Below, one piece after another: positions 7,305 to 27,720 of a stretch of 30,447 nucleotides of DNA. Position 1 is the stretch's first letter. Each line of letters starts with the position of its first letter. The notes under the pieces were generated by a model. The model was given only the letters and a program-made list of their open reading frames with translations, did no database searches and was not told where the DNA came from. A program made the translations under genes and the position numbers. This DNA comes from a virus, in the IMG/VR virus record IMGVR_UViG_3300025099_000091, positions 1 through 30,447 of that record; one strand, given 5' to 3'.

Positions 7305-8303
7305 TTAGATAACTCCTGTAATAACGCCATGGTATTCTGCTGGACCTTTGTCCAAGCCAATTTCCATGTAAACACGCTTTGATATTGCTGCTGCATCATC
7401 ATTGTCTGTATCCTCTACGAATACTGCACCCTTACCTGGGATGTTTAAGAAACAAACATCAAGGTAGGATAAGTCAAGGACGAATGCTTTAGAAGCTGGA
7501 ACGAATTCGTTCACAACTAATCCAATGTTACCAAATGGTGTGATGATACTATCAATATCAACACCAGCGACATTTCTGTCTCTTGGTAATACTGCCATTT
7601 GAGCATTTCCAGAAGCTGCTAGTCCTTGGTTTAAGTCAAGGATAGAGCCTGGTCTTGCAAAAAGAACAGGGTTTTGCATTGGTGCACCATTATCGTACAT
7701 AGCTTTAAGTATCTCTGCTACTGCATCAAAATCTAATGCTGTGTCTGCAGATGAAACTTGGTTATCAAATGTAGATGAACCATTACCTGATGCTACCCAT
7801 TCGTCAATGCCACGCATTTCCCTTGGGTTGCCATCTGTTCCATCATTGAAAGTAGCATTAAAGAATTCGTACTCAACTTCTCTTGCGATTTTGCTAAGTA
7901 GTTCTTCAATTTGAAATGCCATTTCATCATTGATTGGGTTTGAACCTTCAAAAGCTGCTGTTCCAGATTCCATAGCTTGGGAGTTCAAATATCCTGTTGA
8001 ACCTAGAGCTGAGTATGTTAATTTCACACCCTGATTCCAGATTTGTACACAGTCTATTGCTGAACTTCTGCTTCTACCAAAATATGCTGGAGTTCCACCT
8101 TCTGCAACTGCTGTATAGCTGTTGACTGTAGGTGTATCCACTTTTTGGGTTTGGAATACTGGAGAACTAAGAAGTTTACCACCTGTTAAACCACCCACCA
8201 TGGATAGTAAAGGTGTTCTTCTTGCACCAACTTTAAATAGTTCACCTGTAAAGTTGTTAATCTCAGCTACTGAGATTGGGTCTGGTGAGCCTATAGCTGC
8301 CAT
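7305..8303 (-). CDS. Major capsid protein (332 aa)
   Basis: It forms the capsid shell. Length, position after a scaffold-like gene, strong Shine-Dalgarno (TTAGGAG, 7 bases before ATG) and the composition support this. Sequence traits include PISVAEINNFTGELFKVGARRTPLL near the N-terminus (split here: PISVAEINNF, then GARRTPLLSMVGGLTGGK), GTPAYFGRSR, an acidic helix with EELLSKIAREVEYEFFNATF, and DNDDAAAISKRVYMEIGLD near the C-terminus. These resemble the HK97-fold group typified by phage SU10 capsids; the subfamily call is from memory. There is no sign of an N-terminal protease domain. It contains two cysteines, unlike the internal virion block. The gene is isolated by hairpins on both sides and by its own upstream promoter candidate, as expected for the most abundant protein. 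Confidence 0.88.
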   Translation of the reverse strand: MAAIGSPDPISVAEINNFTGELFKVGARRTPLLSMVGGLTGGKLLSSPVFQTQKVDTPTVNSYTAVAEGGTPAYFGRSRSSAIDCVQIWNQGVKLTYSALGSTGYLNSQAMESGTAAFEGSNPINDEMAFQIEELLSKIAREVEYEFFNATFNDGTDGNPREMRGIDEWVASGNGSSTFDNQVSSADTALDFDAVAEILKAMYDNGAPMQNPVLFARPGSILDLNQGLAASGNAQMAVLPRDRNVAGVDIDSIITPFGNIGLVVNEFVPASKAFVLDLSYLDVCFLNIPGKGAVFVEDTDNDDAAAISKRVYMEIGLDKGPAEYHGVITGVI

Positions 8304-11726: not shown

Positions 11727-14633
11727 TTACCTACTCTCCTGCATTGTAGCATACTGTTCAAAGGCATAATCAATTATAGGTTCACTTATCTTCCATGACA
11801 ACGACCATGTATCAGAAACTTCACCAAATTCTTGCCATGCATCTTTACCTAATTGTTTCCAATCATAGTCATTGTAAATTGGTTCTTCACCCTCTAGTGT
11901 TTTACCACCCATAAATGATGGTACAAAATCATTTTGACCACCTTGTTTCTCTACTGCTTTATTAAATGCTTGACCTGCATCTATAGCAAGTATTGCCAAT
12001 TCATATCCTACATAAGCTGCTAGTGCTGCAGGTGCTATCGCTGCTAGTCCTAACCTAGGTAGTAACCTAGCTATCCCTGTAGTTATTGCTAAATCACCTG
12101 GGTCTAATACAGTTCCTGCTGCACCAAACGCTTTACCTACAACCCTCTTAGCAGATTTAAAGATGCCATCTACAACCTCTGGTTGTGCATTAGCTAATTC
12201 TTTTACCTTGTTTAAACTGTCACTATCTACAAGGTCAGCAGCATCTTCTACTACAGTACTAGCAACATTAATTATTTCTTCTGGCATCAATGCTACTTTC
12301 TGTGGAGCAAATGGTCTATCAGCTGGTCTAATATAATTAGGGTCTCCAGGCTTTATTAAGTTACCATCTACATCTCTCATGTGTTGTCCATAATTTGTAT
12401 ATGTGTTCTGACCTAATGTTTCTGTAGTCATAATTCTTCTAGCGTCTGGAGAATACATCTCTTTATGAGCTAACCATGCGTTGTACTCACCTATTGGACC
12501 AAAGGTATTACCTCTCATACCATGTCCAAATGTGTCATGCACAGCTCTAAAGACATCATTCTCTAGCATTATTTTTCCATTTACATCTGTGTATCTTGAT
12601 ACAGCTAACATAGGGTTTCTTACATCAGCTTTAACAATGCCTTCTGGAGTAGCTAATGGATAACCAAAAGCTGTATCTGTAGCTAATACTTTTAAAGTTC
12701 CAGATTCCATATCAGCTATCATTTGTTGATGACCAGCTTTATTAGGTGTATAAGGGTCTACATCTACTAATTCAAACTTTATACCTGAATCTAACAATAC
12801 TTGATATTGCATATTAGTTTCCCCTATGAACTTCTTGTAATAAGGTATCGCAGTGTCATCAAACATAGGTAGTCTTTCAAATATATCTGCTGCTATTGCA
12901 CCCACTTCATCATTAAATACCATAGCTGGTTTAAACTGTGGGTCAGAGTATCCCATTATTTTGTGATAATCTTGTGCTATTTTTCTAATCCTATCACTGT
13001 GTACAGATAGGCTAACATCATCCATAACTCTTAATGTTCCTCTAGTTTGTGCTCTGTATCCACGACTACCATCACCCATATCTATAGTTCTTAAATCTTT
13101 AGGAACAAATAATTCTAAAGTACCATTTACAGGTATTCCTCTTTTTAAAATATTTGTAATCCCTACTTCTTTTAAAGCTCCATTTTCCATTACAATTAGT
13201 TTCAATCCTTGATTTTGTAAATCATTAACTAAACCTGCAGCAGGTCTTGCATGTAATCCTGCAGGGTCTGTTACTTCTAAAGTAAAAGGTTTATAATCAT
13301 CTATGTTTAAAGTTTCTACAGCAGGTACAACATTTGTTGGTGTGTCCACTACATTTGTAGGTGTATCTAATTCACTGACATTACCTTCCAAAATATTTTT
13401 TACATCAATTCTATTTTTAAAAAGTTGTGTTTCTAGTACTGGACCATTAAGATTTTCGTATATTGTAGTGCTTGGATACATATTAGTCATTCCACCTATT
13501 TGTACTTCAGGATAAATAACTGGTAACAAGTCATCAGAAGCACTTGAATTAGCTTCAATAAATTCTATTACCTTTTCTTTTGTTAGTTGTTTAACTGCTT
13601 CACGACTGCCATCTCCCAACTTTTCATAAGCATCCAAATCTTGGGGAGATATTCCAGCATTACTACGCATCTCATCAAAAACTTCAACACCTTTTTTTCT
13701 GGTTAACTCTTGCAAGAACTCTGTTAATTTCTCATCTATTAATTGCACAATAGGAGGAGCAGGTGTATTTCTTTGACCCATACCTGCGTATTGATAATAG
13801 GCATCATTATTAATTATGTTATCAGTCAAGTCATCCATTAATAAAAATACATTGTCTCCTAATATAAACTCTTTAGCTTTTTTATTAAATTCGTTTGTCC
13901 ACCAAGTGTGAAGTTCACGCAACTGACTTAGGTTTTCAGGTGGAGTATATAACCTGTTACCTTTAAAATTTTCTTGGGGTACAGCAATTCTATTCCAATC
14001 TATTTCTACATCAAGTTCATCTGGATGATAAAGTTCTCCTTCAGCATTTTGTAAAAATTCAATTATGTCTAAACCATGATTCATCAACACTCTCTGTTCA
14101 AGACTTTCAGGAAAGACATGTCTAACACCCAATGCAATTTCTTCTCTGTTTATATTTCTTGTAACACTATCAAGTATTTCTCCTGCAGCTTTTTTGTAAT
14201 TGTCACTTGATTCAGCAAAAAGAAAATCTCTTTCGTTGGATTCTTTTAAAGAATTTATAGCAAACTTAACATATTTTTTAAATTTATCTGCACCATCTCT
14301 TGTTGCTTTTTGTAATAATTTACTGACACCTTGACCTTGCATCCTAAAAACATCTTTACCTGAATCAATATTTAATTGAGCTGCATCTGTAAAAAATTCT
14401 GTAAGTCTTTTTTCTATTTCTTTTGTAGATAGTTTTGACCATGGTTCTGTAGAAAGTTTAGTCATTTCATTACCTAAATCATTATGGTGTAAATTATTAC
14501 CATACATCATTAAGCTCAAAGCCTTTTGTCTATATGTTTGTATTACTGAATTACCAGGTACAGTGTCTAATATACCTTCTAGAAGATTACTAAGAATCCT
14601 ATCTTTCTCTTTAATAATCTGTTGTTTGTTCAT
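11727..14633 (-). CDS. Multidomain virion protein with HPr-like segment and HDTFGH domain (968 aa)
   Basis: Four parts are visible. Residues 1-400: helical, charged, with no recognised domain. About 425-440: a linker with a duplicated DTPTNVV. About 453-515: a segment like HPr of the phosphotransferase system, with G-L-H-A-R-P-A-A placing His461 where HPr carries its phosphorylated histidine, then ITNILKRGIPVNGTLELFV in the place of the second helix and last strand; the HPr C-terminal helix is not evident. About 560-780: a domain with HDTFGH (His699, His704), NAWLAHKEMYSP and TTETLGQN, which I recall from other phage virion or polyvalent proteins without assigned activity. About 857-884: a hydrophobic, membrane-type segment. 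It contains no cysteine. It could be ejected and insert in the cell envelope. Domain identity of the HPr part is a motif-based inference. Confidence 0.7.
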   Translation of the reverse strand: MNKQQIIKEKDRILSNLLEGILDTVPGNSVIQTYRQKALSLMMYGNNLHHNDLGNEMTKLSTEPWSKLSTKEIEKRLTEFFTDAAQLNIDSGKDVFRMQGQGVSKLLQKATRDGADKFKKYVKFAINSLKESNERDFLFAESSDNYKKAAGEILDSVTRNINREEIALGVRHVFPESLEQRVLMNHGLDIIEFLQNAEGELYHPDELDVEIDWNRIAVPQENFKGNRLYTPPENLSQLRELHTWWTNEFNKKAKEFILGDNVFLLMDDLTDNIINNDAYYQYAGMGQRNTPAPPIVQLIDEKLTEFLQELTRKKGVEVFDEMRSNAGISPQDLDAYEKLGDGSREAVKQLTKEKVIEFIEANSSASDDLLPVIYPEVQIGGMTNMYPSTTIYENLNGPVLETQLFKNRIDVKNILEGNVSELDTPTNVVDTPTNVVPAVETLNIDDYKPFTLEVTDPAGLHARPAAGLVNDLQNQGLKLIVMENGALKEVGITNILKRGIPVNGTLELFVPKDLRTIDMGDGSRGYRAQTRGTLRVMDDVSLSVHSDRIRKIAQDYHKIMGYSDPQFKPAMVFNDEVGAIAADIFERLPMFDDTAIPYYKKFIGETNMQYQVLLDSGIKFELVDVDPYTPNKAGHQQMIADMESGTLKVLATDTAFGYPLATPEGIVKADVRNPMLAVSRYTDVNGKIMLENDVFRAVHDTFGHGMRGNTFGPIGEYNAWLAHKEMYSPDARRIMTTETLGQNTYTNYGQHMRDVDGNLIKPGDPNYIRPADRPFAPQKVALMPEEIINVASTVVEDAADLVDSDSLNKVKELANAQPEVVDGIFKSAKRVVGKAFGAAGTVLDPGDLAITTGIARLLPRLGLAAIAPAALAAYVGYELAILAIDAGQAFNKAVEKQGGQNDFVPSFMGGKTLEGEEPIYNDYDWKQLGKDAWQEFGEVSDTWSLSWKISEPIIDYAFEQYATMQESR

Positions 14634-14743
14634 TACTTTTCGTTAGATGTTATTTCATCAGGTATTTCAAAATCATTTAACTCAAAATCTTCAAGGTCCT
14701 TTAAGATTGTTTCCATAACACTTTTTTCTTTATTAGGTGCCAT
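14633..14743 (-). CDS. Small acidic protein (36 aa)
   Basis: The reading frame from the ATG at 14743 gives MAPNKEKSVMETILKDLEDF and ends EITSNEK. Both ends overlap neighbours by one base (TAATG at the start and at the stop), which is the same coupling used throughout this operon and argues that the frame is real. It is strongly acidic in the middle (DLEDFELNDFEIPDE). Such a peptide could be a chaperone or assembly partner of the 968-residue protein encoded next, but nothing in the sequence shows this. Confidence 0.65.
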   Translation of the reverse strand: MAPNKEKSVMETILKDLEDFELNDFEIPDEITSNEK

Positions 14744-15603
14744 TATCTTGACAACAACTTTAGTGCAGCTTTTACACTATCACTTAGATTAGGTTTAGGC
14801 ACAACTGTGTTAAGAGGTTCTTGTCCAACTGCTTTCTTTTGTTTATTAACTTGTGCTTCCAACATCTGTCTGACTCTACCATACATTTTACTTTGTGCTT
14901 GTAGTGGAACTTGTGTTGTATATTGTGTCATCTCAGGTGGTGTTAGAAAAGGAGTCCTTTGTGGTTGAGGTTGTCTTGGGTCATAACCATCTTCTGGCTC
15001 TGGTATTCCTCTGTCAGGTGCATTATCATCTGCAGGAGAACTAGCCATAATTTCTTTCACTTCATTTTCTATTTCTTGTTTTAATTTTTGTGCGTCTGTA
15101 TTGTTTGGGTCATTAAATTTATTAATAGTTAAAACATATAACTCTTTCATAGCTTCTTTGTAGTCATCTGAGTTTATATCTTTTAACTTTTGTTCTAACA
15201 TATATTTAAATACAAGTGCATTATCTTTTAAATTTGCTTGTGTCTTAAACCATTCAGCAGCAAACTTCTTTTGTTCACTAGAAAATTTAAGTAAACTTTC
15301 TTGTCCTGGTTGTGCAACATTACTTAACAAAACTTTATCTTGTTCATCTGTAATTCCTGGTAATTCAACACCAAGTTCTTTCATGGCTTTATAAATAGCA
15401 GGTGCCATTGAATTTAAGTTAGCTTGGAATATACCCCATGAAGGAGATTCTTTATCTAGTGCATCTCTAGTAAAAGGTACACCACCAACTCTTGATTCAT
15501 AACCAGCTATTGGAACGACATACTCTATGACTTCTTCTGCTATGCCAACACTTTGTAGTGCTTCAATAACTTCTTCTACTGTATAGTTTGTTTCTTCCAT
15601 CAT
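14743..15603 (-). CDS. Lytic transglycosylase-like virion protein (286 aa)
   Basis: Residues about 25-65 carry the two landmarks of the soluble lytic transglycosylase/lysozyme-like fold. AGYESR has Glu36 as the likely catalytic acid, and S-W-G-I-F-Q at 55-60 corresponds to the conserved G-(L/I)-(M/F)-Q that lines the glycan site. The rest is helical, then a Pro-rich linker at about 200-230 and a basic C-terminus (VNKQKKAVGQ ... AALKLLSR). Enzymes of this type cleave peptidoglycan glycan strands; as a virion component it would open the wall locally during DNA entry. The gene lies inside the internal-protein block, not in a lysis cassette, which favours the entry role. Start at 15603 or the next Met (15600) cannot be separated; it overlaps the preceding stop. 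Confidence 0.7.
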   Translation of the reverse strand: MMEETNYTVEEVIEALQSVGIAEEVIEYVVPIAGYESRVGGVPFTRDALDKESPSWGIFQANLNSMAPAIYKAMKELGVELPGITDEQDKVLLSNVAQPGQESLLKFSSEQKKFAAEWFKTQANLKDNALVFKYMLEQKLKDINSDDYKEAMKELYVLTINKFNDPNNTDAQKLKQEIENEVKEIMASSPADDNAPDRGIPEPEDGYDPRQPQPQRTPFLTPPEMTQYTTQVPLQAQSKMYGRVRQMLEAQVNKQKKAVGQEPLNTVVPKPNLSDSVKAALKLLSR

Positions 15604-16617: not shown

Positions 16618-19600
16618 TTATCCTTCTAATCCAAATCTCGTAAGCTCGTAAGAGAATACCTTATCAAATATTACCAAAAATTTAGGATTATTTCTTCCTA
16701 TTTCCTGTGCTTTAGTATACAACTGATTACGAACTTCTTGTGCTTGTATAGTATCACTTGTACTAATCCATCTCATAGCATCTTTTTCTATAGGATAACC
16801 CCTACTATCTGCTACAGCATCTATTGCCTGAGCTCTAAAATTGAGATATAAAGCTATTTCATTTCTGTTATCAAAGTTATCTAGTCTTGGGTCCTTAACA
16901 GCTCTTTCTAAATAATCTATAAGTACATCATTAGGTACGCCTGTTTCATAATCAGAACCTAGAACTTTGTTTAACTCTGCAGAATTACCATAAGCCATTG
17001 GAAACATTTTTTCTAAATCAGCTTCTATTAATGCAAACTTAGCTTTCTTTCTAGCAACTCTTTCTCCTGGGTCAGCAGTACTATTGTCTATAACTTTAGA
17101 CCAGTAGTCTTTTGTTGCTACTTCTATTGCACTGGCTAAGAATGTTTGTGTAGATACATAAAACTCATCTGGTGTTTTTGGTGAAAACAATCCTAAGTTA
17201 GATATATAACTAACTCCACCATAATCAACATTACCCTCATCTAATCCTGGAGCAAACAATGTTAGGACTGGTCCATACTCAGCAGCTAGTTCTGGGTTAT
17301 CTAAAACAAAATCATACTCTGGTGTAGTTCTTGGTAAGATACCACCTTGTGATATATTCTTACCTTTTAGTTGTAAAGCAGTAGAAGTAAAACCTTCTGA
17401 CAAATCTCTATTATCTAAACCTAATAGTTTAGCTACTTCTAGCAACGCATAGAACTCACCTTGTGGTCCTAGTGTCATTACATACTCATCTTTAATATCT
17501 TGATAGAAACCATGTATAACAGAAAGCTCTACAAAGTTGTTGTACACTAATCCACTATCTTCACCTTTAGTTCCATACCATTCTCCAAATGCAACTTCGT
17601 TACCTTCTATTGCGTACATAATAGATAGCCTTGGTATGAATGGGTTTACAAATCTATCCCATGCTTTAAGTTGAAAGAAGTTAGCTGCTAGTGTCATAGC
17701 AACAGTTTCTAATGCTTGTTGGTCATCTGCTAAATCTGGTCTTAATATACCTGCTACTTGATAACCAGTGTTTATAGAGGACAACCATTGGTCCTCATCT
17801 AAACCTTTTGTATCTAAATTTGTAGCAAGTTGATTGAAAAGATTCTTACCAACTGATGGTATTGTAGTTTCTGCTAATATTCCAGGAATATCTTCAAGAG
17901 AATCATACCTTGCACCTGTTAATTCAAATCCACCAAATACATATTTTTCTAAATTCTTTTTAGCTTTAGGTTTATTTTTAACTAACACACCTACAGGTAA
18001 TGCTATTGCAGGTCCTACTGGTGGGAATAATCCTCCACCACCAACATTTAATGCACTAAGTGGTATTCCTCTTTTAGCAATAATCTTAGAATCAGCAAGT
18101 GACATATCATCAGTAAACGCACCTCTACCTTCAGTCTTTACATAATCTTCAAATGGTGTTCCACCTACTGGTACTATTAAATACTTTTCTCCAGAAGGGT
18201 CTTCATATATAAAGTTATGTTCTATACCTTTTCTATAACCAAATCCTATTTGTGCTATTGCTTTAGGATTAGCTAAACCTAGGTTGTAATATCTACCTAA
18301 CACTTCTCGCCATGCTTCAAAGAAAGCAAAGCCTACTCTATATGCTTGTGAGAAAAACCCTCGTTCTGTTAGGTTATATAATAACCTAGAGTGTAACTCA
18401 AAAGCATACTCTACAGCTCTTTCATGTAAATCTTCCATAGACATAACTCTTGGTGTAGATGCAGATTTTATATCTGACAAATCTAACATAGATTGATAGT
18501 CTCCACTAAATGTTTTTTCATTTAAAATTGGATTAGTTTGTGGTTTTAATATTTTAACAATACCTGCTTTTTCATCTACAATCGCTCTGATTCCTGCAGC
18601 TTGTAATACATCATTACCAATAACTGCTCCTGCTCTTGGAGAGGTAATAGCTCTATTAGGCTTCAGTATTTTTTTATTAGAACCTATAAGTAAATCTTGA
18701 CCTGCTCTTCTTATAACATCAAATGCTCCTGCAGTATTGCTAGGTATAGCTCCTTGATAACCAGCACTAGTTATATTACCTATAGCTTTTTGGTCTGCTA
18801 GTATCGCTATGTATTGTGCTTTAGCAAGTGCTTCATCTGTTCCATCTATCACTTGTGCAGCAACACCCTTTTTAATTTTTATAGAAACATCTAAATAAAG
18901 TTTGTCATTTTCTATCCAACCACCTAACACATGGTCCTCTTTCTTTAACAATGTTTTATTTTTAATAATAAAATCTTCTATTTGTTTTCTTGTTACAGGA
19001 GTATCCAATATTAATTCTCTAGTTTTATATGGTGAAACATAATAACCAGGTATGTTTGTATTATTTTTTCTTCCTAAATCTATACTCCATCCTTCTGGAT
19101 TAGCTTTTATGTATTCGTATGCTCTATCTATAGCATCTTCTACATCTGCTTTTTTTCTAAGTATTGGTCTTGCTACTTTTTTACCTACTACTCTATTTAA
19201 TGTACTAATACCTACATCATGGGTTATTTCACCTTGTGCATTTTTAACTTTCTTAGTTGTCTTACCTTTTTGTAATTTTACTTTTAATCCAACAACATTA
19301 GGTGTAGAACCATCTATACCTAGAACTTCAAATAATTCTTGTTTAGTTATTGTTTTATCAAACTTACCTTGACTACTAGCTAAATACTCTATGGCATCAT
19401 CTACTAATGCTTCTGCATCTACGCTTTCATCTAGTGCATTAGTTACTGCTCTAACAAGTGCGTCTCTGTCTGGTATAGAACCATTAATAATAGCTTCTGA
19501 TTTATTAATAGAAAAGTTATATACACCTATAGCATCACCATCATCACCTAATCTGTAATCAGCTACAGCAGATTGTTTTTTAAATACTTTAAGTTCTGTA

Positions 19601-22600
19601 TTATATAAGTTTAAATCAAAAGTAAGTTCATTATTAAATGTATCTAATCTTTTTAAAGATGTAATTTGTTTTTGTCCATTATCACTGTAAGCAATTATGG
19701 ATAACGAGTCACCATTATCAAATACTTTAACTGGTACAGTTCTTTCTACTACAGCTAAATCAGGTGCTAAATTTTTAATAGCATTATATTCATCTTGAAC
19801 TAATCTAAATATTTCATCACTAAGTTTTATAGGAGACTCTGGGTCTTTATGTGCATTCATTATTTTGTTAAGACCTTGTTTAGAAGTGAATGGTATACCT
19901 GCTTCTATAAAATGTTCGTAACCTTGTTTAAACAAAGGTACTCTAATTAAATCAGCTTCCATTTGTGCAGTGGCAAAAAACAAACTATCTAATCCTTTTT
20001 GAAATGCAGTTCTTTCATCTAATTCTGGTTTCTGTTTTGGCATTTGATTAGGCATATTAGTTTGATTTTTAACTGTAAGTTTTTTCATTTTTGCATTATA
20101 AATAGCCAGATTTTCTGGGGTCATAGAATCTGCACTACGCAAATCAACTCTTCCTACTTTACCTGTAGCAATAATATCTATCATATCTGCACTACCACCA
20201 GTCACATTGTTTATGCTTTGTACATAATGTTTAGCTAACTCATCATAGTCTTCTGTCTTATATGCAATAGGTAGAGTTCCTCTTGAATACACATTTCTTG
20301 ACTGCATCATTTTATTTGCTTGTTCTATAATTGCTTGTACTGAAGGAGTCTCTTGATAAAACTTAGCAATATCTGTGTAATCTAAACCTTGTTTCATTAA
20401 TGCTGCTGTAATCATAGCTAAATCATCATCAATATATTCAAAGAAATATTCTTGTACAGCTTCTATATACTCATCTGACAATTTAAAATCTAACACGCCA
20501 TCAGGCATAGGAACATTTTTTGTTCCCACTTTATTAATTAAGTCATAACCAGTATCTGGGAATCTTCTACCAAACGCAAATGTAGGTGAAGCAGATGACA
20601 ACGACTGTAATTCTGGTATACCATATTCTGCACTGTCTTGTAGAACACCTAATGCTTTTCTTACAGGCATAGGTAATTTTTCATTTAATCCTTGTAAACT
20701 TTTACTTTTAAATTCCAATGGTCTAGTTATTTTATATGGACCAACTAGAGATGTTTCTGGTGTGTATCCTAATGCTCTAGCTAATGCACCATTTGCATCA
20801 TTTAATAAGAACCTAAGAAATTTTACAGGGCTTCTAAATGCAGACCTGACACCCAGTAAAGATGCTCTTATGTGTCCATCTACTGTTAGTTTTGCTGGAT
20901 AAGAAAATCTACCTAGCAACTGTAGTGGGTAAAATACACCTCTTACTATTCCAAATGTTCCTTTTTCTATAGATGACAAAACCTTTTCTTGACCTTTAAA
21001 CAAGATTCCTGGGTCTCCTAAACCTTTAGAAATAGCTGCTATCTCTGCACCCATAGGAGTCTCTTCATCCCAAAAGGTTCCTCGTTTACCATCTTCAAAT
21101 GCTTTTCTAGCTTTATCAAATACTTTATCAATACCTTCTTTTTCAATTAATGCTTTAGCTCTTAATCTTCTTCTTTGTGATGTAGTTTTAATTATATCTA
21201 CTACATCTGGTATCTCTATGCTGTAACCTCTAAATTGATTTAAAAGTTCTATAGAGTTTTTTGTAAATTCTTGTGGTATTTCTATACCTTCTACTTGTCC
21301 ACTGAATTGTCTCTTTGTAAGAATATCTATCTCATCTACTGGGTAAAACTCATTTGTTCTTGATGGTGTTAAAAAATCTCCTACATCATCACTAAACATT
21401 CTTGGACCTTGTTTCATTTTTCCAAAAAACTCTGTTATTTCTCCATCTGATAAACCATACAAATACCTAAGTTGTAATGCACCTTCTGTTCTAAGCAAAC
21501 CATCATAATAAATATCTTGTGCTTTTGTATACAAACCTTCGTCTGCTGCATTATAGAAATCTATTAACAACTTGTTTAAACGAGTTTGTGGTACTTTAAA
21601 TACATTTCCAACTCTTGCAAACATTACTACAGCTTCTTGTATGTTTCTTAAATCTACTTGTCCACGATTAGGCAATCTTATATCTGTACCATTTACCATT
21701 TCTTTTAATGTAGAACCTAATACTTTATTGCCAGTTGCAGTGATACTGTTGTCTATATCTTTTGCTCCAAATGTATTAATTAAATTATCTGATATTACTT
21801 TTGATTGTATTCTAAATTGACCTGTTTTACCTAGAGAAGATTTTCCAAACACCATATCTGATACATAACCATTATTAAATCCATCTATAAGACCTTCTTT
21901 AATAATTGCAGGGTCAGTTGCATCAGCTACAGTCTTTGCAAACTTATGATTAAATCCTGAGTTAATCATATTTAAAAATGTAGGTTGATTTGCATTGTTA
22001 GCTTCTACAAGAACAGTAGCTATACCATCTAGTATTTCATCATTGTTTTGCCAAAACTCTGCTACAGTTCCACCTTCATCAATAAACCTTTTCATTTCTT
22101 TTTGTGCACCAGCAAGTACTTCATCAAATTTCTCTGGAACTTTACCTGCTATTCCTACACCTTTAGCAAACATAACAACTGGGTCTGTGAAATACATAGC
22201 AACTAAATTCATAGCACCACCCATAATTCCTGCTATACCTTTGTTAGGGTCAAATGCTACCTTACTTAATTCTTCATCTCTTTCATCTTCTAATTTATCA
22301 ACAAGTTCATTTTTTTGTGTAATAGATATTTGACCTGTATCAAATGCTTGTTCTGCTTGTAATACTTTTAAATCATATAGTTCTTGCGTTTCTTCATAGA
22401 TTACATTTTCAGGTGAATATCTACCTGGCATATTTCCTGTAACTAAGTAACTAGCAAAATCTCCTATGTTAGAAGATATTTGTGCTTTTTCATAACCTTC
22501 TCTTAACTTTCTATTTTCTGCTACTGGTGTAGACTCACCTAATATATTTAATAAAGGATTTGTTGCTGTTTCTTCTGTCATAATGTCATACCAGTTATTC

Positions 22601-23466
22601 AAAGCTAAACTAGCTTTTTCTGTTTGTGTAAGTTCTCTTTGCAATTCTTTTTCTTGTATTCGTATTTCATCAAGAGTATTTTCTTTTGTCGCTTGTATAG
22701 CAGCTTCTATATCAGTTTGCTGAACATATCCTTCTCCATCAGCATCTACTACACCTTGTGTAGCTAACCATGCTTTTGATTTAACTTCTACATCAACTAA
22801 AGAATCTACTGGTGTATCTAAACCAAAGATGTTTAACAAAGTTTCTGGAGCTGTTGTAACATAATTATTTAAGGTTAGTAAAAATGCTCTTGCTCTTACA
22901 CTTGCTGCTTTCCATTCTTGTTGATTATCATTACGACCTTTTTTTTCAAACTCAATCATGTCTTGTCTAGTAAGACCATCTTCAGCAAGTATCTGTTCTT
23001 CGTATTGTGCATAAGGCACACCTAATTGATTGACTACACCTCTCTGAAGAATATCAAAAATGCTATTAAGACCCATAAAAAGAGTGCCTGTCATAAACTT
23101 ATTACTTTTGTCGTAACCTAAATCTTTTCTTGTTTTCTTTAATATCTCATCATTGTTACGAACTATTTGTTGTACTTTCTTTAGATAATCTGTAATAGCA
23201 TTTGGTTTGCCATTAGTTAAATTAACTTGTATAGGTTTAGTAGTTTTATATAAGTCATAATATTGTTCTGGTGTAACATTTAACTCTGCTGCTGATACTA
23301 CTAACTCATCCATTTCTAATGAGTTTAAATCTTTTAAGTCTTGGAAGTTTTGAGTAAGTGCATCTAAATCAGTATTAGCTTTAGTAGCATCTTTCTTTTT
23401 AGTATATGCAATACTTTCGTTTTGTTTCTCAAAGAAGTCTTTGTTCCATTTATGATAAATGCTCAT
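16618..23466 (-). CDS. Giant putative ejection/internal virion protein (2282 aa)
   Basis: This gene takes up over a fifth of the window. I recognise no enzyme motif. The protein is mainly helical and charged, without cysteine. Two hydrophobic stretches stand out: GIAGIMGGAMNLVAMYF (about 410-430) and GGGGLFPPVGPAIALPVGVL (near 1800), the second Gly/Pro-rich like a fusion or pore segment. About 1270-1560 is a beta-rich part with repeated charged strands (ERTVPVKVFDNGD and later KLYLDVSIKIKKG). Size, place after the portal and neighbours recall the very large internal proteins of short-tailed phages (T7 gp16, N4 virion RNA polymerase), but I see no polymerase or lysozyme motif. It could also be a polyvalent protein carrying several effectors. 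Starts in a TAATG overlap. Confidence 0.6.
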   Translation of the reverse strand: MSIYHKWNKDFFEKQNESIAYTKKKDATKANTDLDALTQNFQDLKDLNSLEMDELVVSAAELNVTPEQYYDLYKTTKPIQVNLTNGKPNAITDYLKKVQQIVRNNDEILKKTRKDLGYDKSNKFMTGTLFMGLNSIFDILQRGVVNQLGVPYAQYEEQILAEDGLTRQDMIEFEKKGRNDNQQEWKAASVRARAFLLTLNNYVTTAPETLLNIFGLDTPVDSLVDVEVKSKAWLATQGVVDADGEGYVQQTDIEAAIQATKENTLDEIRIQEKELQRELTQTEKASLALNNWYDIMTEETATNPLLNILGESTPVAENRKLREGYEKAQISSNIGDFASYLVTGNMPGRYSPENVIYEETQELYDLKVLQAEQAFDTGQISITQKNELVDKLEDERDEELSKVAFDPNKGIAGIMGGAMNLVAMYFTDPVVMFAKGVGIAGKVPEKFDEVLAGAQKEMKRFIDEGGTVAEFWQNNDEILDGIATVLVEANNANQPTFLNMINSGFNHKFAKTVADATDPAIIKEGLIDGFNNGYVSDMVFGKSSLGKTGQFRIQSKVISDNLINTFGAKDIDNSITATGNKVLGSTLKEMVNGTDIRLPNRGQVDLRNIQEAVVMFARVGNVFKVPQTRLNKLLIDFYNAADEGLYTKAQDIYYDGLLRTEGALQLRYLYGLSDGEITEFFGKMKQGPRMFSDDVGDFLTPSRTNEFYPVDEIDILTKRQFSGQVEGIEIPQEFTKNSIELLNQFRGYSIEIPDVVDIIKTTSQRRRLRAKALIEKEGIDKVFDKARKAFEDGKRGTFWDEETPMGAEIAAISKGLGDPGILFKGQEKVLSSIEKGTFGIVRGVFYPLQLLGRFSYPAKLTVDGHIRASLLGVRSAFRSPVKFLRFLLNDANGALARALGYTPETSLVGPYKITRPLEFKSKSLQGLNEKLPMPVRKALGVLQDSAEYGIPELQSLSSASPTFAFGRRFPDTGYDLINKVGTKNVPMPDGVLDFKLSDEYIEAVQEYFFEYIDDDLAMITAALMKQGLDYTDIAKFYQETPSVQAIIEQANKMMQSRNVYSRGTLPIAYKTEDYDELAKHYVQSINNVTGGSADMIDIIATGKVGRVDLRSADSMTPENLAIYNAKMKKLTVKNQTNMPNQMPKQKPELDERTAFQKGLDSLFFATAQMEADLIRVPLFKQGYEHFIEAGIPFTSKQGLNKIMNAHKDPESPIKLSDEIFRLVQDEYNAIKNLAPDLAVVERTVPVKVFDNGDSLSIIAYSDNGQKQITSLKRLDTFNNELTFDLNLYNTELKVFKKQSAVADYRLGDDGDAIGVYNFSINKSEAIINGSIPDRDALVRAVTNALDESVDAEALVDDAIEYLASSQGKFDKTITKQELFEVLGIDGSTPNVVGLKVKLQKGKTTKKVKNAQGEITHDVGISTLNRVVGKKVARPILRKKADVEDAIDRAYEYIKANPEGWSIDLGRKNNTNIPGYYVSPYKTRELILDTPVTRKQIEDFIIKNKTLLKKEDHVLGGWIENDKLYLDVSIKIKKGVAAQVIDGTDEALAKAQYIAILADQKAIGNITSAGYQGAIPSNTAGAFDVIRRAGQDLLIGSNKKILKPNRAITSPRAGAVIGNDVLQAAGIRAIVDEKAGIVKILKPQTNPILNEKTFSGDYQSMLDLSDIKSASTPRVMSMEDLHERAVEYAFELHSRLLYNLTERGFFSQAYRVGFAFFEAWREVLGRYYNLGLANPKAIAQIGFGYRKGIEHNFIYEDPSGEKYLIVPVGGTPFEDYVKTEGRGAFTDDMSLADSKIIAKRGIPLSALNVGGGGLFPPVGPAIALPVGVLVKNKPKAKKNLEKYVFGGFELTGARYDSLEDIPGILAETTIPSVGKNLFNQLATNLDTKGLDEDQWLSSINTGYQVAGILRPDLADDQQALETVAMTLAANFFQLKAWDRFVNPFIPRLSIMYAIEGNEVAFGEWYGTKGEDSGLVYNNFVELSVIHGFYQDIKDEYVMTLGPQGEFYALLEVAKLLGLDNRDLSEGFTSTALQLKGKNISQGGILPRTTPEYDFVLDNPELAAEYGPVLTLFAPGLDEGNVDYGGVSYISNLGLFSPKTPDEFYVSTQTFLASAIEVATKDYWSKVIDNSTADPGERVARKKAKFALIEADLEKMFPMAYGNSAELNKVLGSDYETGVPNDVLIDYLERAVKDPRLDNFDNRNEIALYLNFRAQAIDAVADSRGYPIEKDAMRWISTSDTIQAQEVRNQLYTKAQEIGRNNPKFLVIFDKVFSYELTRFGLEG

Positions 23467-23801: not shown

Positions 23802-24024
23802 TGTTATCATCCTCATCTGGTTCTTCTATTTCAAACCCCATACTTATACTAAACCATACACCAGGTAATGGTGTAGGTAAAATAAATGCACCTAAAGGAA
23901 CATCCCCTTGTACAAATAAATCTCTAACCATTGTTGAATCAGATTCTATTTCTGGAATATCCCAATCTTCGTTATTTATAATATTAAAAAATCTTGCATT
24001 TACTTCTGCTGGGTTTTTAGCCAA
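23788..24024 (-). CDS. Small hypothetical protein with TTG start (78 aa)
   Basis: An ATG in this frame at 24084 would put 68 bases inside the portal gene. A TTG at 24024 has AGGAGG a few bases upstream and overlaps the portal stop by only 8 bases, so I take it as the start (MAKNPAEVNARFFNIINNED). The protein is acidic at its end (EIEEPDEDDNNARW) with a hydrophobic central stretch (GAFILPTPLPGVWFSISMGF) that could be a beta hairpin. There is no recognised family. It shares 14 bases with the next gene. Confidence 0.6.
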   Translation of the reverse strand: MAKNPAEVNARFFNIINNEDWDIPEIESDSTMVRDLFVQGDVPLGAFILPTPLPGVWFSISMGFEIEEPDEDDNNARW

Positions 24025-25810
24025 GAGGTCCTCCTGGTGGGAGTCCTGGTCCTGCTGATAATTGTTCAGGTGGTAATCCTCCACCTAGTTGTGCTAAAAC
24101 AGAAGCAATATCTGGTTCACCTTGTGGAACCTGTGGTCCACCTGCACCACCTAAAGCAGCTTCTTGTGGTGTCATTTCTGGTTCTTCTGGTGTGTAAAAC
24201 TTATCAAGAATCTCTGACATATTTTGTGGGTTTTTTCTTATCTCTATAGCTGCCATAGTTGCTTTACTATCTCCTTGTGCAGCTTGTGCCATTAATGATT
24301 CAAATAATACATTCTCTGCTTTTTCAGAGTTAACTCTGTTTTGTACTTGGGATATATTATCTATACCATCAAGGTTCTCTTGTAATGTTTGCATATCTAT
24401 TACGCCCTGTTGTTTTAGTTGCAGCCCTGTTATTATTTTTTGTGGTTCATCAAATCCTGCCATAACGCCATAGACTCTTCTAGTCTTGTACATTTCAGCA
24501 ATATCTGTTCCTGGGTCATAAGATTCTTTGAATGCAGTTCCTTTTCTAAATCCTGCAATAGGTTTTCTTTGACCTTTATACATAATCTCATCCCACTCTA
24601 ATCTCTTAGCATCTACTTCTTCTAGTGCATCAGTTAATACTGTTTGATATTCTCTTACATGTAATGATGCTGACTGTCCTAGTTCTTCTAATCCTCTACC
24701 AGTAACAAAAGCATTAGGGCTTTGTCCATCATCAGATACTGGATAAGATGCACCAAGTCTTAAATGTCTTTCAAGTCTATCTATTTGTTGGAACAACTGA
24801 TAAGGCAAATTATTAGTTGGTTTGCTAACTTGCGAACCAGGTGTCAAGTAATTGACAGCGAATCTACCTTTTCTATATTGTCCAGATTCTATCTCGCCAA
24901 TGATGTTGGTTTCTGTGAACACAGCATCTTCCATAGCAATAACAGATAGAACATTGATTTTTGCCATATTTGACATCAAGCCAATAACATGATGAAACTG
25001 ACTTTGCATTTGGTCAAAGCTGTAACGCTTTGCTATGACAAATCTTGGTCCTGATTTAAGAGGGTTAGGAATGAAATCTAATATTATTCTATTTTCAGGT
25101 AAGAAAACATAAGTACCTTCTTGGTCATAATACTCTGCAACTACTTTACCTGTACCATCTGCGTTAGCCCATCCTTCGTCATAACTAGAAGCATACGCCA
25201 TAGTATTATATTCTGTACTTACTTCATCAAGTATTACATTTTTGTGTTTTGGATACATCTCTGCAAGTGTTTTATGAGGTACTCTTTGTACTACAGCCAA
25301 CTCTGTTGGTTGTTGGTCTACGCCAAAGTATCCTGGATAACATAGATAAGGGTCTCTTATCTCTGCTACTGGATATGGTATTCCATTAGCATCTTTCTTT
25401 TCTTTTAGTATCCATACAGCAAAACCATAACCAGGTAACCACCTACCTATTTGTGGTAGTTGTTTTTCTAGTTTTTGCATATCATCATACGCATGTACGA
25501 TTCTCTCTAGCTTTTCTGCTCTCTTAGTAGCTCTCTCTGAATCTTTATCATTGTATATATCTACTTTTAAATCTGGGGCTCTACCTAATTTTTGTGCAAA
25601 TCTTTCTAATGCAGACATTAACAAGTTAGGTGCTGGTAATTGTTTGTAGTCCATATCACGCATATCTTTACCTAGTAATGCTTTTAATCCATCTGCACCA
25701 CCATTCATAATTGCTCTTATGTTTGCTTTATCAGATACAAAATCTGAGTGCATAGCTCTCAGTTCATATACTCTTGAATAAAGCTCGTCAACTGTTTTCA
25801 TGTTCTCCAA
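24017..25810 (-). CDS. Portal protein (597 aa)
   Basis: It forms the dodecameric ring at the capsid vertex through which terminase pumps DNA. The assignment rests on length, on location directly after the large terminase (13-base overlap), and on portal-like features. The N-terminus is helical. A middle part has strands (FVIAKRYSFDQMQSQFHHVIGLMS, split) followed by a long helix (PYQLFQQIDRLERHLRLGAS). The region EYQTVLTDALEEVDAKRLEWDEIMYKG resembles the stem helices. The last 50 residues are Pro/Gly-rich (PQVPQGEPD, LPPGGPLG) and probably flexible. One cysteine is present (YLCYPGYF). No protease or other enzyme is fused. I am fairly sure of the role, but did not match a particular portal subfamily. 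Confidence 0.82.
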   Translation of the reverse strand: MENMKTVDELYSRVYELRAMHSDFVSDKANIRAIMNGGADGLKALLGKDMRDMDYKQLPAPNLLMSALERFAQKLGRAPDLKVDIYNDKDSERATKRAEKLERIVHAYDDMQKLEKQLPQIGRWLPGYGFAVWILKEKKDANGIPYPVAEIRDPYLCYPGYFGVDQQPTELAVVQRVPHKTLAEMYPKHKNVILDEVSTEYNTMAYASSYDEGWANADGTGKVVAEYYDQEGTYVFLPENRIILDFIPNPLKSGPRFVIAKRYSFDQMQSQFHHVIGLMSNMAKINVLSVIAMEDAVFTETNIIGEIESGQYRKGRFAVNYLTPGSQVSKPTNNLPYQLFQQIDRLERHLRLGASYPVSDDGQSPNAFVTGRGLEELGQSASLHVREYQTVLTDALEEVDAKRLEWDEIMYKGQRKPIAGFRKGTAFKESYDPGTDIAEMYKTRRVYGVMAGFDEPQKIITGLQLKQQGVIDMQTLQENLDGIDNISQVQNRVNSEKAENVLFESLMAQAAQGDSKATMAAIEIRKNPQNMSEILDKFYTPEEPEMTPQEAALGGAGGPQVPQGEPDIASVLAQLGGGLPPEQLSAGPGLPPGGPLG

Positions 25811-27720
25811 ACATCTATATCTATATCTAGCCCTGAGTATCCACTAAAGCTAGGTTCGTATTCCATACCCATTGTAGCAAGTCTTTCTTTTTGTAAACGC
25901 CTTATTGTTTTCATTGGAAACCAACTTGCCATAACTAAATCAGATTTCTGTCCAACGCTTCTACTCTTGTTTTGTGCAGAACTAAAATATACTAACTGAC
26001 TTGTATATAAGTTTACCTTTTCTTGTGCTTCAAAGCTACGATAAGGTAAATTAATTAGCTTTTGTTCAAACAATGGTCTCATAGCTGTAACACCATAAAC
26101 TGGGTCATGCTTGTTGCCATAAGTTTGTGTACCTTCTAAAAAGATACCATGCTTACCTGCGAACTCTCTAATTGATTTATCTTGTCGTATCGCTCTCTGA
26201 AATCCATTCTCTTCAATAACCCAGTGTGCTAGGTTATATTTTTGAAACCAACTCTTTATTATTTCTAATGCTACTGGAATACCTCCACCTAAACTATTCT
26301 CCATATCTATCATAAAGAGTTTATCTGTCTGTTGGTCATATCCCCACAAAAACGCAGCTTGGTATCCTGTTGACGCAGGGTCAAGTCCTGCAATAAGTCT
26401 TACATTATTTGGTATGTGTCCTATGTCTCTGTTTTGGTCTCTACATTCTTCTATCTCTGGTCTGTCAAATAAACTCATACCATCTGGCATAGCTACATTA
26501 AGATACACCATTTCATAGATTGCTCTACCACCTGTAGTCTCTGCAGCTTTCTTTCTATCCATAAGCCATTTGTATGTTCTCTTCTTAGCCCATAACATAC
26601 ACTCTTGATGTAACTCATTATCCCAATCAGATTTTGTACAAGCAGTATCATGTGCTTCTTCTACAATAGTTAACCATGATTCGTTGTCTAACAAGTGTGA
26701 ATACAAATCGTCATAGTGTTGTCTTGAACCTATTACAACCATAGCTGTATGTTCCTCTTTACGACTTGACAATGTTGTAGTCCACCAGTTTCTTGTGTTC
26801 TCTCTTGATGCAGGTTGCATAGTAGAACTGTGGTCCTCAATGTCATCTGCAATAATTATGTCACAGTCACGAGAAAGAATCTTTCCACCTCTACCAATAC
26901 CTACCATAGTAGGAGATTTAATACCAGTAACAGTACGAGTACCAACAGTAAAACCATTCTGTGACCAAGACTTACCAGTTCTACTTGTAGGTTTAAACTT
27001 AGGTCCAGGTCCACATATCTCTTCTATTAATAATTCGTTACTCTCTAGTTGGTCAAGTACAGAACTGACTGCGTTCTTTGAAATCTCTTCGTTACCACCA
27101 ACCCATAATATTCTTATGTTTGGTTTTGTGCATATTAACCATACTGCAAAATGTATTAACAAATCAGTTTTACCATGTCGTGGTGGTGATAATATCATCT
27201 GCTGATTACCATGCTCTATTGCTTCTAAGATAGAATTAATCCATTTGATGTGAAAGTCTGGTGTTTCGTATGGGTCGCCTGTTTCTGTTTGAAAATATCT
27301 GTCTCTAAAATTTCTAAAGTCTTCTAATGATTTCTCTGCTACCTGTGGTAACTCCCAGGTCTTTCTTGCTTCTTCTTGTTCTAAATCTTCTATGTATGCT
27401 TGATACGCCATAGATACTGCTGCTACAGAAGTTTCAAGTATCTTTGCTACATCTTGTATAGTTGTTTTTTGTCTCAGTATATCTTTACCTAAACCTGATT
27501 CTTTTAGGTCGTTATAAACTACACCTCTACGACTTTGTACATTTTGTTTACTAGGTATAACTAATTCGTCTTCTGTTTGTACCCATTCAACACCTTTAGC
27601 TTTAGCTCTTTTCTTTTGTGTCTGTATTCTGTTAGCACATCTATCGCTACAATATTTTGTACGCTTACCACTAAGAACTCTTTTACACCCTGCAGCGTAA
27701 CATAATTTTCTATCTGGCAT
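25798..27720 (-). CDS. terL: Terminase large subunit with N-terminal zinc-finger-like and HTH-like extension (640 aa)
   Basis: It is the packaging motor: an ATPase that drives DNA into the capsid and a nuclease that cuts it. Residues 178-185 (SPPRHGKT) are the Walker A loop. RDCDIIIADDIED is Walker B with the acidic pair. LIAGLDPASTGYQAAFLWGYD (split) is the start of the RNase H-like nuclease with its first Asp. Unusually, residues 7-28 contain Cys7, Cys12, Cys24 and Cys28 in a basic context, like a small treble-clef or zinc ribbon. Residues about 86-110 (TIQDVAKILETSVAAVSMAY) read like a helix-turn-helix. No separate small terminase is recognisable nearby, so the extension may recognise DNA. 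The gene starts inside the end of a zinc-ribbon microprotein gene and lacks a strong ribosome binding site. Confidence 0.92.
   Translation of the reverse strand: MPDRKLCYAAGCKRVLSGKRTKYCSDRCANRIQTQKKRAKAKGVEWVQTEDELVIPSKQNVQSRRGVVYNDLKESGLGKDILRQKTTIQDVAKILETSVAAVSMAYQAYIEDLEQEEARKTWELPQVAEKSLEDFRNFRDRYFQTETGDPYETPDFHIKWINSILEAIEHGNQQMILSPPRHGKTDLLIHFAVWLICTKPNIRILWVGGNEEISKNAVSSVLDQLESNELLIEEICGPGPKFKPTSRTGKSWSQNGFTVGTRTVTGIKSPTMVGIGRGGKILSRDCDIIIADDIEDHSSTMQPASRENTRNWWTTTLSSRKEEHTAMVVIGSRQHYDDLYSHLLDNESWLTIVEEAHDTACTKSDWDNELHQECMLWAKKRTYKWLMDRKKAAETTGGRAIYEMVYLNVAMPDGMSLFDRPEIEECRDQNRDIGHIPNNVRLIAGLDPASTGYQAAFLWGYDQQTDKLFMIDMENSLGGGIPVALEIIKSWFQKYNLAHWVIEENGFQRAIRQDKSIREFAGKHGIFLEGTQTYGNKHDPVYGVTAMRPLFEQKLINLPYRSFEAQEKVNLYTSQLVYFSSAQNKSRSVGQKSDLVMASWFPMKTIRRLQKERLATMGMEYEPSFSGYSGLDIDIDVWRT

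Follow-up and report, generated by a model that had tools for sequence, protein, structure and literature searches.

We conclude that recombination exchanges the modules of a polyvalent-type phage protein at a linker whose DNA sequence is constant over 27 bp. One of these modules is HPr by descent, in a shortened form. The window analyzed, a stretch of 30,447 nucleotides, comprises the structural-gene half of a tailed-phage genome with about 35% GC. In it the protein is encoded by a 968-amino-acid ORF (11727..14633; all window features located here by coordinates lie on the minus strand) and consists of an N-terminal helical region, the linker, the HPr-like module and a conserved C-terminal part.

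Gene neighborhood and relatives

The genes of the window are arranged in the order large terminase (25798..27720), portal protein (24017..25810), a 2282-amino-acid protein (16618..23466), two small ORFs, the 968-amino-acid protein, ORFs of 616 and 288 amino acids, a scaffold-like ORF, an SU10-type major capsid protein (7305..8303) and tail genes. The location of the 968-amino-acid gene between the portal and capsid genes is what suggests the label "virion protein" given to it in the initial annotation. The 2282-amino-acid protein, encoded between the same two genes, belongs to no known family and is by position a candidate internal or ejected protein. Another neighbor, a 286-amino-acid ORF (14743..15603), is transglycosylase-like by eye only and has no Pfam match. 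When the window was compared with a relative, G003, most neighboring structural genes were 71–96% identical, against 42% for the 968-amino-acid protein and 44% for the 286-amino-acid ORF, which identifies the 968-amino-acid gene as a hot spot of change. The rest of the genome can be seen in a 40.5-kb relative, G001, with early genes that include one for an Mre11-like exonuclease. Two early proteins (L058:8968-9870 and L061:6380-7348), the second of which is a match to the annealing protein PHROG 3290, have C-terminal halves that are alike by eye and different N-terminal halves, and they perhaps contain another exchanged module.

All close homologues are on uncultivated metagenome contigs. Within the clade, identity falls to about 57% for long portal matches and to about 36% for capsid matches. 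The closest head and exonuclease proteins from isolates belong to phages of Actinomycetota (24–35% identity), which hints weakly at a link to actinobacteriophages. A search for host clues found no tRNAs and no WhiB gene. Ca. Actinomarinales bacteria possess PTS transporters (PMC7771536) and were considered as hosts for this reason and for the low GC content; they were set aside, as nothing connects these contigs to them.

A shortened HPr module

The initial annotation described an HPr-like segment at residues 453–515. The segment was confirmed, and its ends lie about four residues earlier, at 449–511 (13101..13289). The GLHARP motif occupies residues 459–464, with Arg463 present, and the codon for His461, the counterpart of HPr His15, is located at 13251..13253. 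The strand PFTLEVTDPAG before the motif and LKRGIPVNGTLELFV after it are both where they had been described. The profile search with the HPr family that had been proposed did return HPr: with the Pfam PTS-HPr model (PF00381, cut-off 23), the whole protein scored 19.0 bits and the segment alone, just over the cut-off, 23.6 bits. Matches to this model were found in all four phage records tested and ended at model positions 25–62 of 81. The NCBIfam HPr model, TIGR01003, matched all six of the first relatives (best E 1e-7), and the window version stayed under the model's strict cut-off. In a PDB search with a profile of six relatives, 32 of 35 matches were HPr, NPr or Crh (best E 9e-6). Profile-profile comparison with nine stand-alone HPr sequences, eight from database records and the ninth that of E. 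coli, gave a probability of 98.1% and E 1e-13 over 64 columns.

Structure prediction, also named as a check by the initial annotation, agreed with these results. The AlphaFold models, built from shallow alignments of 6 and 12 rows, reached a pLDDT of 78 for the segment and 56 for the whole protein. The segment is predicted to fold as strand-helix-strand-strand-helix-strand with the His just before helix 1, as in HPr, and Foldseek ranked HPr structures first (probability 1.00, TM-score about 0.65). In the whole-protein model the module forms an island between disordered stretches, and the only good PDB matches were again HPr. The b-a-b-b-a-b-a fold is not complete, its first six elements being present in HPr order and the third helix being absent, as in nearly all versions of the module. 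A chance likeness to the HPr motif, with which the whole-protein Pfam score under the cut-off would agree, is barely credible and can be ruled out on the independent evidence of the fold, the PDB profile search and the profile-profile comparison.

Among 13 divergent versions of the module, down to 28% identity, GLHxxP never varies at its Leu, His and Pro, and Asp14, Gly17, Leu26 and Gly43 (module numbering) are almost invariant. The Arg of GLHxRP is kept in 10 of the 13, the window included, and is replaced by Gly in L003, Ile in L005 and Gln in L145. Of the two residues whose conservation was to be checked, His461 is always present and Arg463 in most versions. Neither of the outcomes that the initial annotation had named as refuting, a fold unlike HPr or a His that varies, was seen. 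Inspection of the same alignment places a Gly at the Ser46 counterpart in the window, and a Ser is found only in L010 and L011. As the His and Pro never vary and the Arg is lost in three versions, selection acts on the loop around the His, and some members do without the full catalytic pair. Regional dN/dS values, which are noisy, have the HPr segment evolving faster than the C-terminal part. The version in L145 (1683-4559), located after a GNAT domain, has HAQP in place of HARP and may hold a third helix. Modules in L090:1347-3044, L109:2-1792 and L111:8302-10335 that share WHNTPTVxLI...IYVKNxxGE match the HPr profile weakly (E 0.0003–0.002) and are perhaps far-diverged HPr-like modules.

Module exchange at a constant DNA linker

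The duplicated DTPTNVV linker noted beside the HPr segment in the initial annotation is a tandem at residues 423–436 (DNA 13367-13326). Copy 1, residues 423–429 (13347..13367), is GATACACCTACAAATGTAGTG, and the diverged copy 2, residues 430–436 (13326..13346), is GACACACCAACAAATGTTGTA. The two changes that separate copy 2 from the consensus preserve the dyad (CTACA-AA-TGTAG to CAACA-AA-TGTTG), a single case that may be due to chance. The duplication had been recognized, and the role of the linker as a recombination joint conserved at the DNA level had been missed.

A total of 119 linker copies were collected from 86 contigs and 76 sources, all of them from a single class of large protein whose genes lie near those for the portal and capsid; protein searches had yielded 14 loci only. 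The linker DNA is almost identical between phages whose flanking protein is 24% identical. Its exact 22-mer was found in 85 IMG/VR stretches, and a scan for (D/N)TPTNVVD with every synonymous codon allowed returned 94 stretches, nearly always with one DNA sequence. Seven extra contigs from the synonymous scan, L161-L164 and L167-L169, do not match the phage clade and probably measure the chance level of the scan. Within the clade, 80 of the 85 DTPTNVV copies are spelled with the same codons, where codon usage would predict 1.2%. In 82 of the 85, Asp is encoded by GAC, a rare codon that makes up 19% of Asp codons. Over 3104 pairs of copies with unrelated flanks the linker is 99.5% identical; the 14-base core used to collect the copies is conserved by construction, a bias from which the flanking positions and the synonymous-codon scan are free. 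The conserved block extends from -1 to about +26, with an abrupt left edge. Each of the 153 near-copies keeps the reading frame; for six of these the ORF is truncated by the end of a contig or locus. A nearly constant peptide between modules could also be a protease cleavage site for polyprotein processing, kept for its amino acids. However, a peptide site does not need frozen synonymous positions, and here they are frozen against the codon preference of the genome; moreover, the flanks switch at the linker. We consider this explanation quite improbable, cleavage at the linker in addition to exchange being possible.

The linker-bearing proteins combine several domains of different activity. 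Pfam analysis of 60 of them detected PTS-HPr in 10, more than any other family, followed by methyltransferases, GNAT acetyltransferases, one NUDIX and one aldolase. The last of these is a class II fructose-bisphosphate aldolase match with E 6.5e-36. A NUDIX-like module stands immediately behind a linker copy in L103:12674-14458, and GNAT and HPr occur together in L145. About 20 contigs besides the window carry the HPr module, and about a dozen of these were missed by protein searches and found through the linker. The module is flanked by the linker on one or both sides and its partners vary: the HDTFGHG domain in the window, the C-terminal part directly in L099, L132 and L157, another module in L154, a very different N-terminal half in L105, and the preceding GNAT domain in L145. 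The partner in the window is a conserved domain at residues ~540–790 (12264..13016) with an invariant HDTFGHG...HKE signature. It is also found (L041-L044) within giant cyanophage proteins and as Bixzunavirus mycobacteriophage proteins, the latter annotated as RelA/SpoT, lysin, glycosylase or hypothetical. A PDB sequence search gave no identification for it, and the full-protein model is weak in that region; the domain has no name and is possibly metal-dependent.

Exchange was seen in the flanks of the linker. At the place of HPr, some of the first relatives have HPr and others have nothing or another sequence. In all, 86 pairings were observed among 56 types of left flank and 55 types of right flank; the module counts make no use of a clustering of whole inter-linker segments, which lumped most of the segments together in a single group. 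Compared as DNA, the two copies agree in the left flank only (at least 75% identity, mostly above 90%) in 25 pairs, whose right flanks are unrelated; 40 pairs agree in the right flank only and have unrelated left flanks. Donors for both sides were found for 15 linker copies. L135 is such a chimera. Its left flank matches the window and its right flank L078, with the switch at the linker, where chimeras drop from above 90% to background identity. Both internal and terminal modules are exchanged, so that the process is not confined to the C-terminus.

As the relatives are all metagenome contigs, and some of them (L123, L079, L101 and L119) end at or near a linker, the diversity of junctions might be attributed to misassembly over a 27-bp repeat, and single junctions may indeed be errors. 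Misassembly nevertheless fails as an overall explanation, and we regard it as very unlikely: the 86 contigs come from 76 sources, 23 of 85 junctions recur in at least two independent metagenomes, and for five right-hand modules there are two or more different left partners, every one of them present in two metagenomes or more. Besides, the reading frame is always kept, and an artefact would leave unexplained why the linker exists in unrelated places.

Exchange may proceed by strand annealing at linker copies through phage recombination proteins, as suggested by matches to an annealing protein (PHROG 3290) in G002 and an exonuclease (PHROG 284) in G001. We also considered that the linker could be a dedicated recombination site, with its 27 bp and the dyad CTACA-AA-TGTAG, at which a phage-encoded in-frame exchange would diversify injected effectors, the HPr cassette serving as a mimic of the host PTS. 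We hold this more elaborate scheme to be rather improbable.

Proposed function and relation to known systems

On balance we lean toward a joint reading in which exchange at the linker, entry with the virion and docking on an HPr partner belong together. According to it, an HPr domain was captured from a bacterium, shortened, and is now carried as an exchangeable cassette of the polyvalent-type protein. The 968-amino-acid protein would be packed in the capsid and enter the cell with the DNA, as its gene position and its likeness to polyvalent proteins suggest (PMC5512222). In the cell, the HPr module would dock on a host HPr-binding protein, such as enzyme I, EIIA or another partner; we think that host PTS proteins are probably the ones bound. 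Partner contacts of HPr involve helix 1, helix 2 and the loop with the His, and not helix 3. The module retains all three of these elements, and the helix it lacks is not a contact part, which argues for docking. Where the Arg is retained, the module may also be phosphorylated.

A working phosphocarrier would go further: host enzyme I would phosphorylate His461, and the phosphate would be drained or handed on to host EIIA, or would serve to switch the other domains of the protein. The invariant His and Pro, the Arg kept in most versions and the modelled position of the His just ahead of helix 1 are all as expected of such an activity. Nonetheless, L003, L005 and L145 lost the Arg yet retain the module, the counterpart of Ser46 is gone from most versions, helix 3 is missing, and no PTS enzyme I was found in the eight phage records examined, G001 among them. 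A phosphocarrier is thus possible although doubtful. The module could instead be a structural spacer, its small and stable fold separating flexible linkers and playing no part in the PTS. Low-confidence, flexible stretches flank it on both sides, and in some relatives it is missing or replaced by another module. A spacer, however, needs no invariant His, and conservation is concentrated in the active-site loop and not in the core; we find this explanation unlikely. The joint reading remains the one we prefer. If it is correct, phages have a way to build host-takeover proteins of several parts from ready-made domains exchanged at a constant DNA joint, with bacterial PTS signalling suggested as one target. 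The linker sequence is also a handle with which effector modules that lack known homologues can be found, and it makes the origin of the mosaic domains of polyvalent proteins directly testable.

The initial annotation knew of no phage virion protein with an HPr domain, and as far as searched none was found in the large proteins of sequenced phage isolates, where the HPr segments of the window and L011 had no significant match. An ordinary auxiliary HPr gene was considered and rejected: stand-alone "phage" HPr sequences are ORFs of 89–120 amino acids, many on unannotated or "unverified" contigs, and none of 10 examined was embedded in a large protein. A stand-alone HPr-like ORF in the 142-kb record of Desulfovibrio phage 7757 (L073, OR395405 26750-26989) has GLHFRK in place of GLHxRP. 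A literature search for DTPTNVV, for an HPr domain in phages and for module exchange driven by a linker turned up no equivalent, which, the coverage being partial, is weak evidence of novelty. Polyvalent proteins are already known; in-frame exchange at a DNA linker looks undescribed.

The module shares with the HPr/PTS phosphocarrier family (PF00381, TIGR01003) the GLHxRP loop, the b-a-b-b-a-b order and the best sequence and fold matches. It differs in lacking the third helix (L145 perhaps excepted), in the loss of Ser46 from most versions and in being located inside a phage protein of about 700–1200 amino acids. Lambdoid phages have short conserved boundary or linker DNA at module borders, between genes. 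The linker described here is likewise a short conserved DNA at recombination borders, although it is intragenic, coding and in frame, and a single gene may hold as many as three copies or more. Polyvalent proteins are large, multi-domain proteins that mix unrelated enzymatic domains and are encoded beside portal and terminase genes, often between portal and capsid genes (Iyer et al. 2017, PMC5512222). The linker-bearing proteins resemble them in being multi-domain and encoded with portal, terminase and capsid genes, and depart from that survey in the HPr cassette and the conserved linker; the words "HPr", "phosphocarrier" and "linker" occur 0 times in it. Polymorphic toxins owe their diversity to cassette recombination, in which the C-terminal toxin end is exchanged (PMC3482391). 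The diversity of the phage proteins also comes from recombined cassettes, but here both internal and terminal modules are swapped, at repeated copies of one DNA linker.
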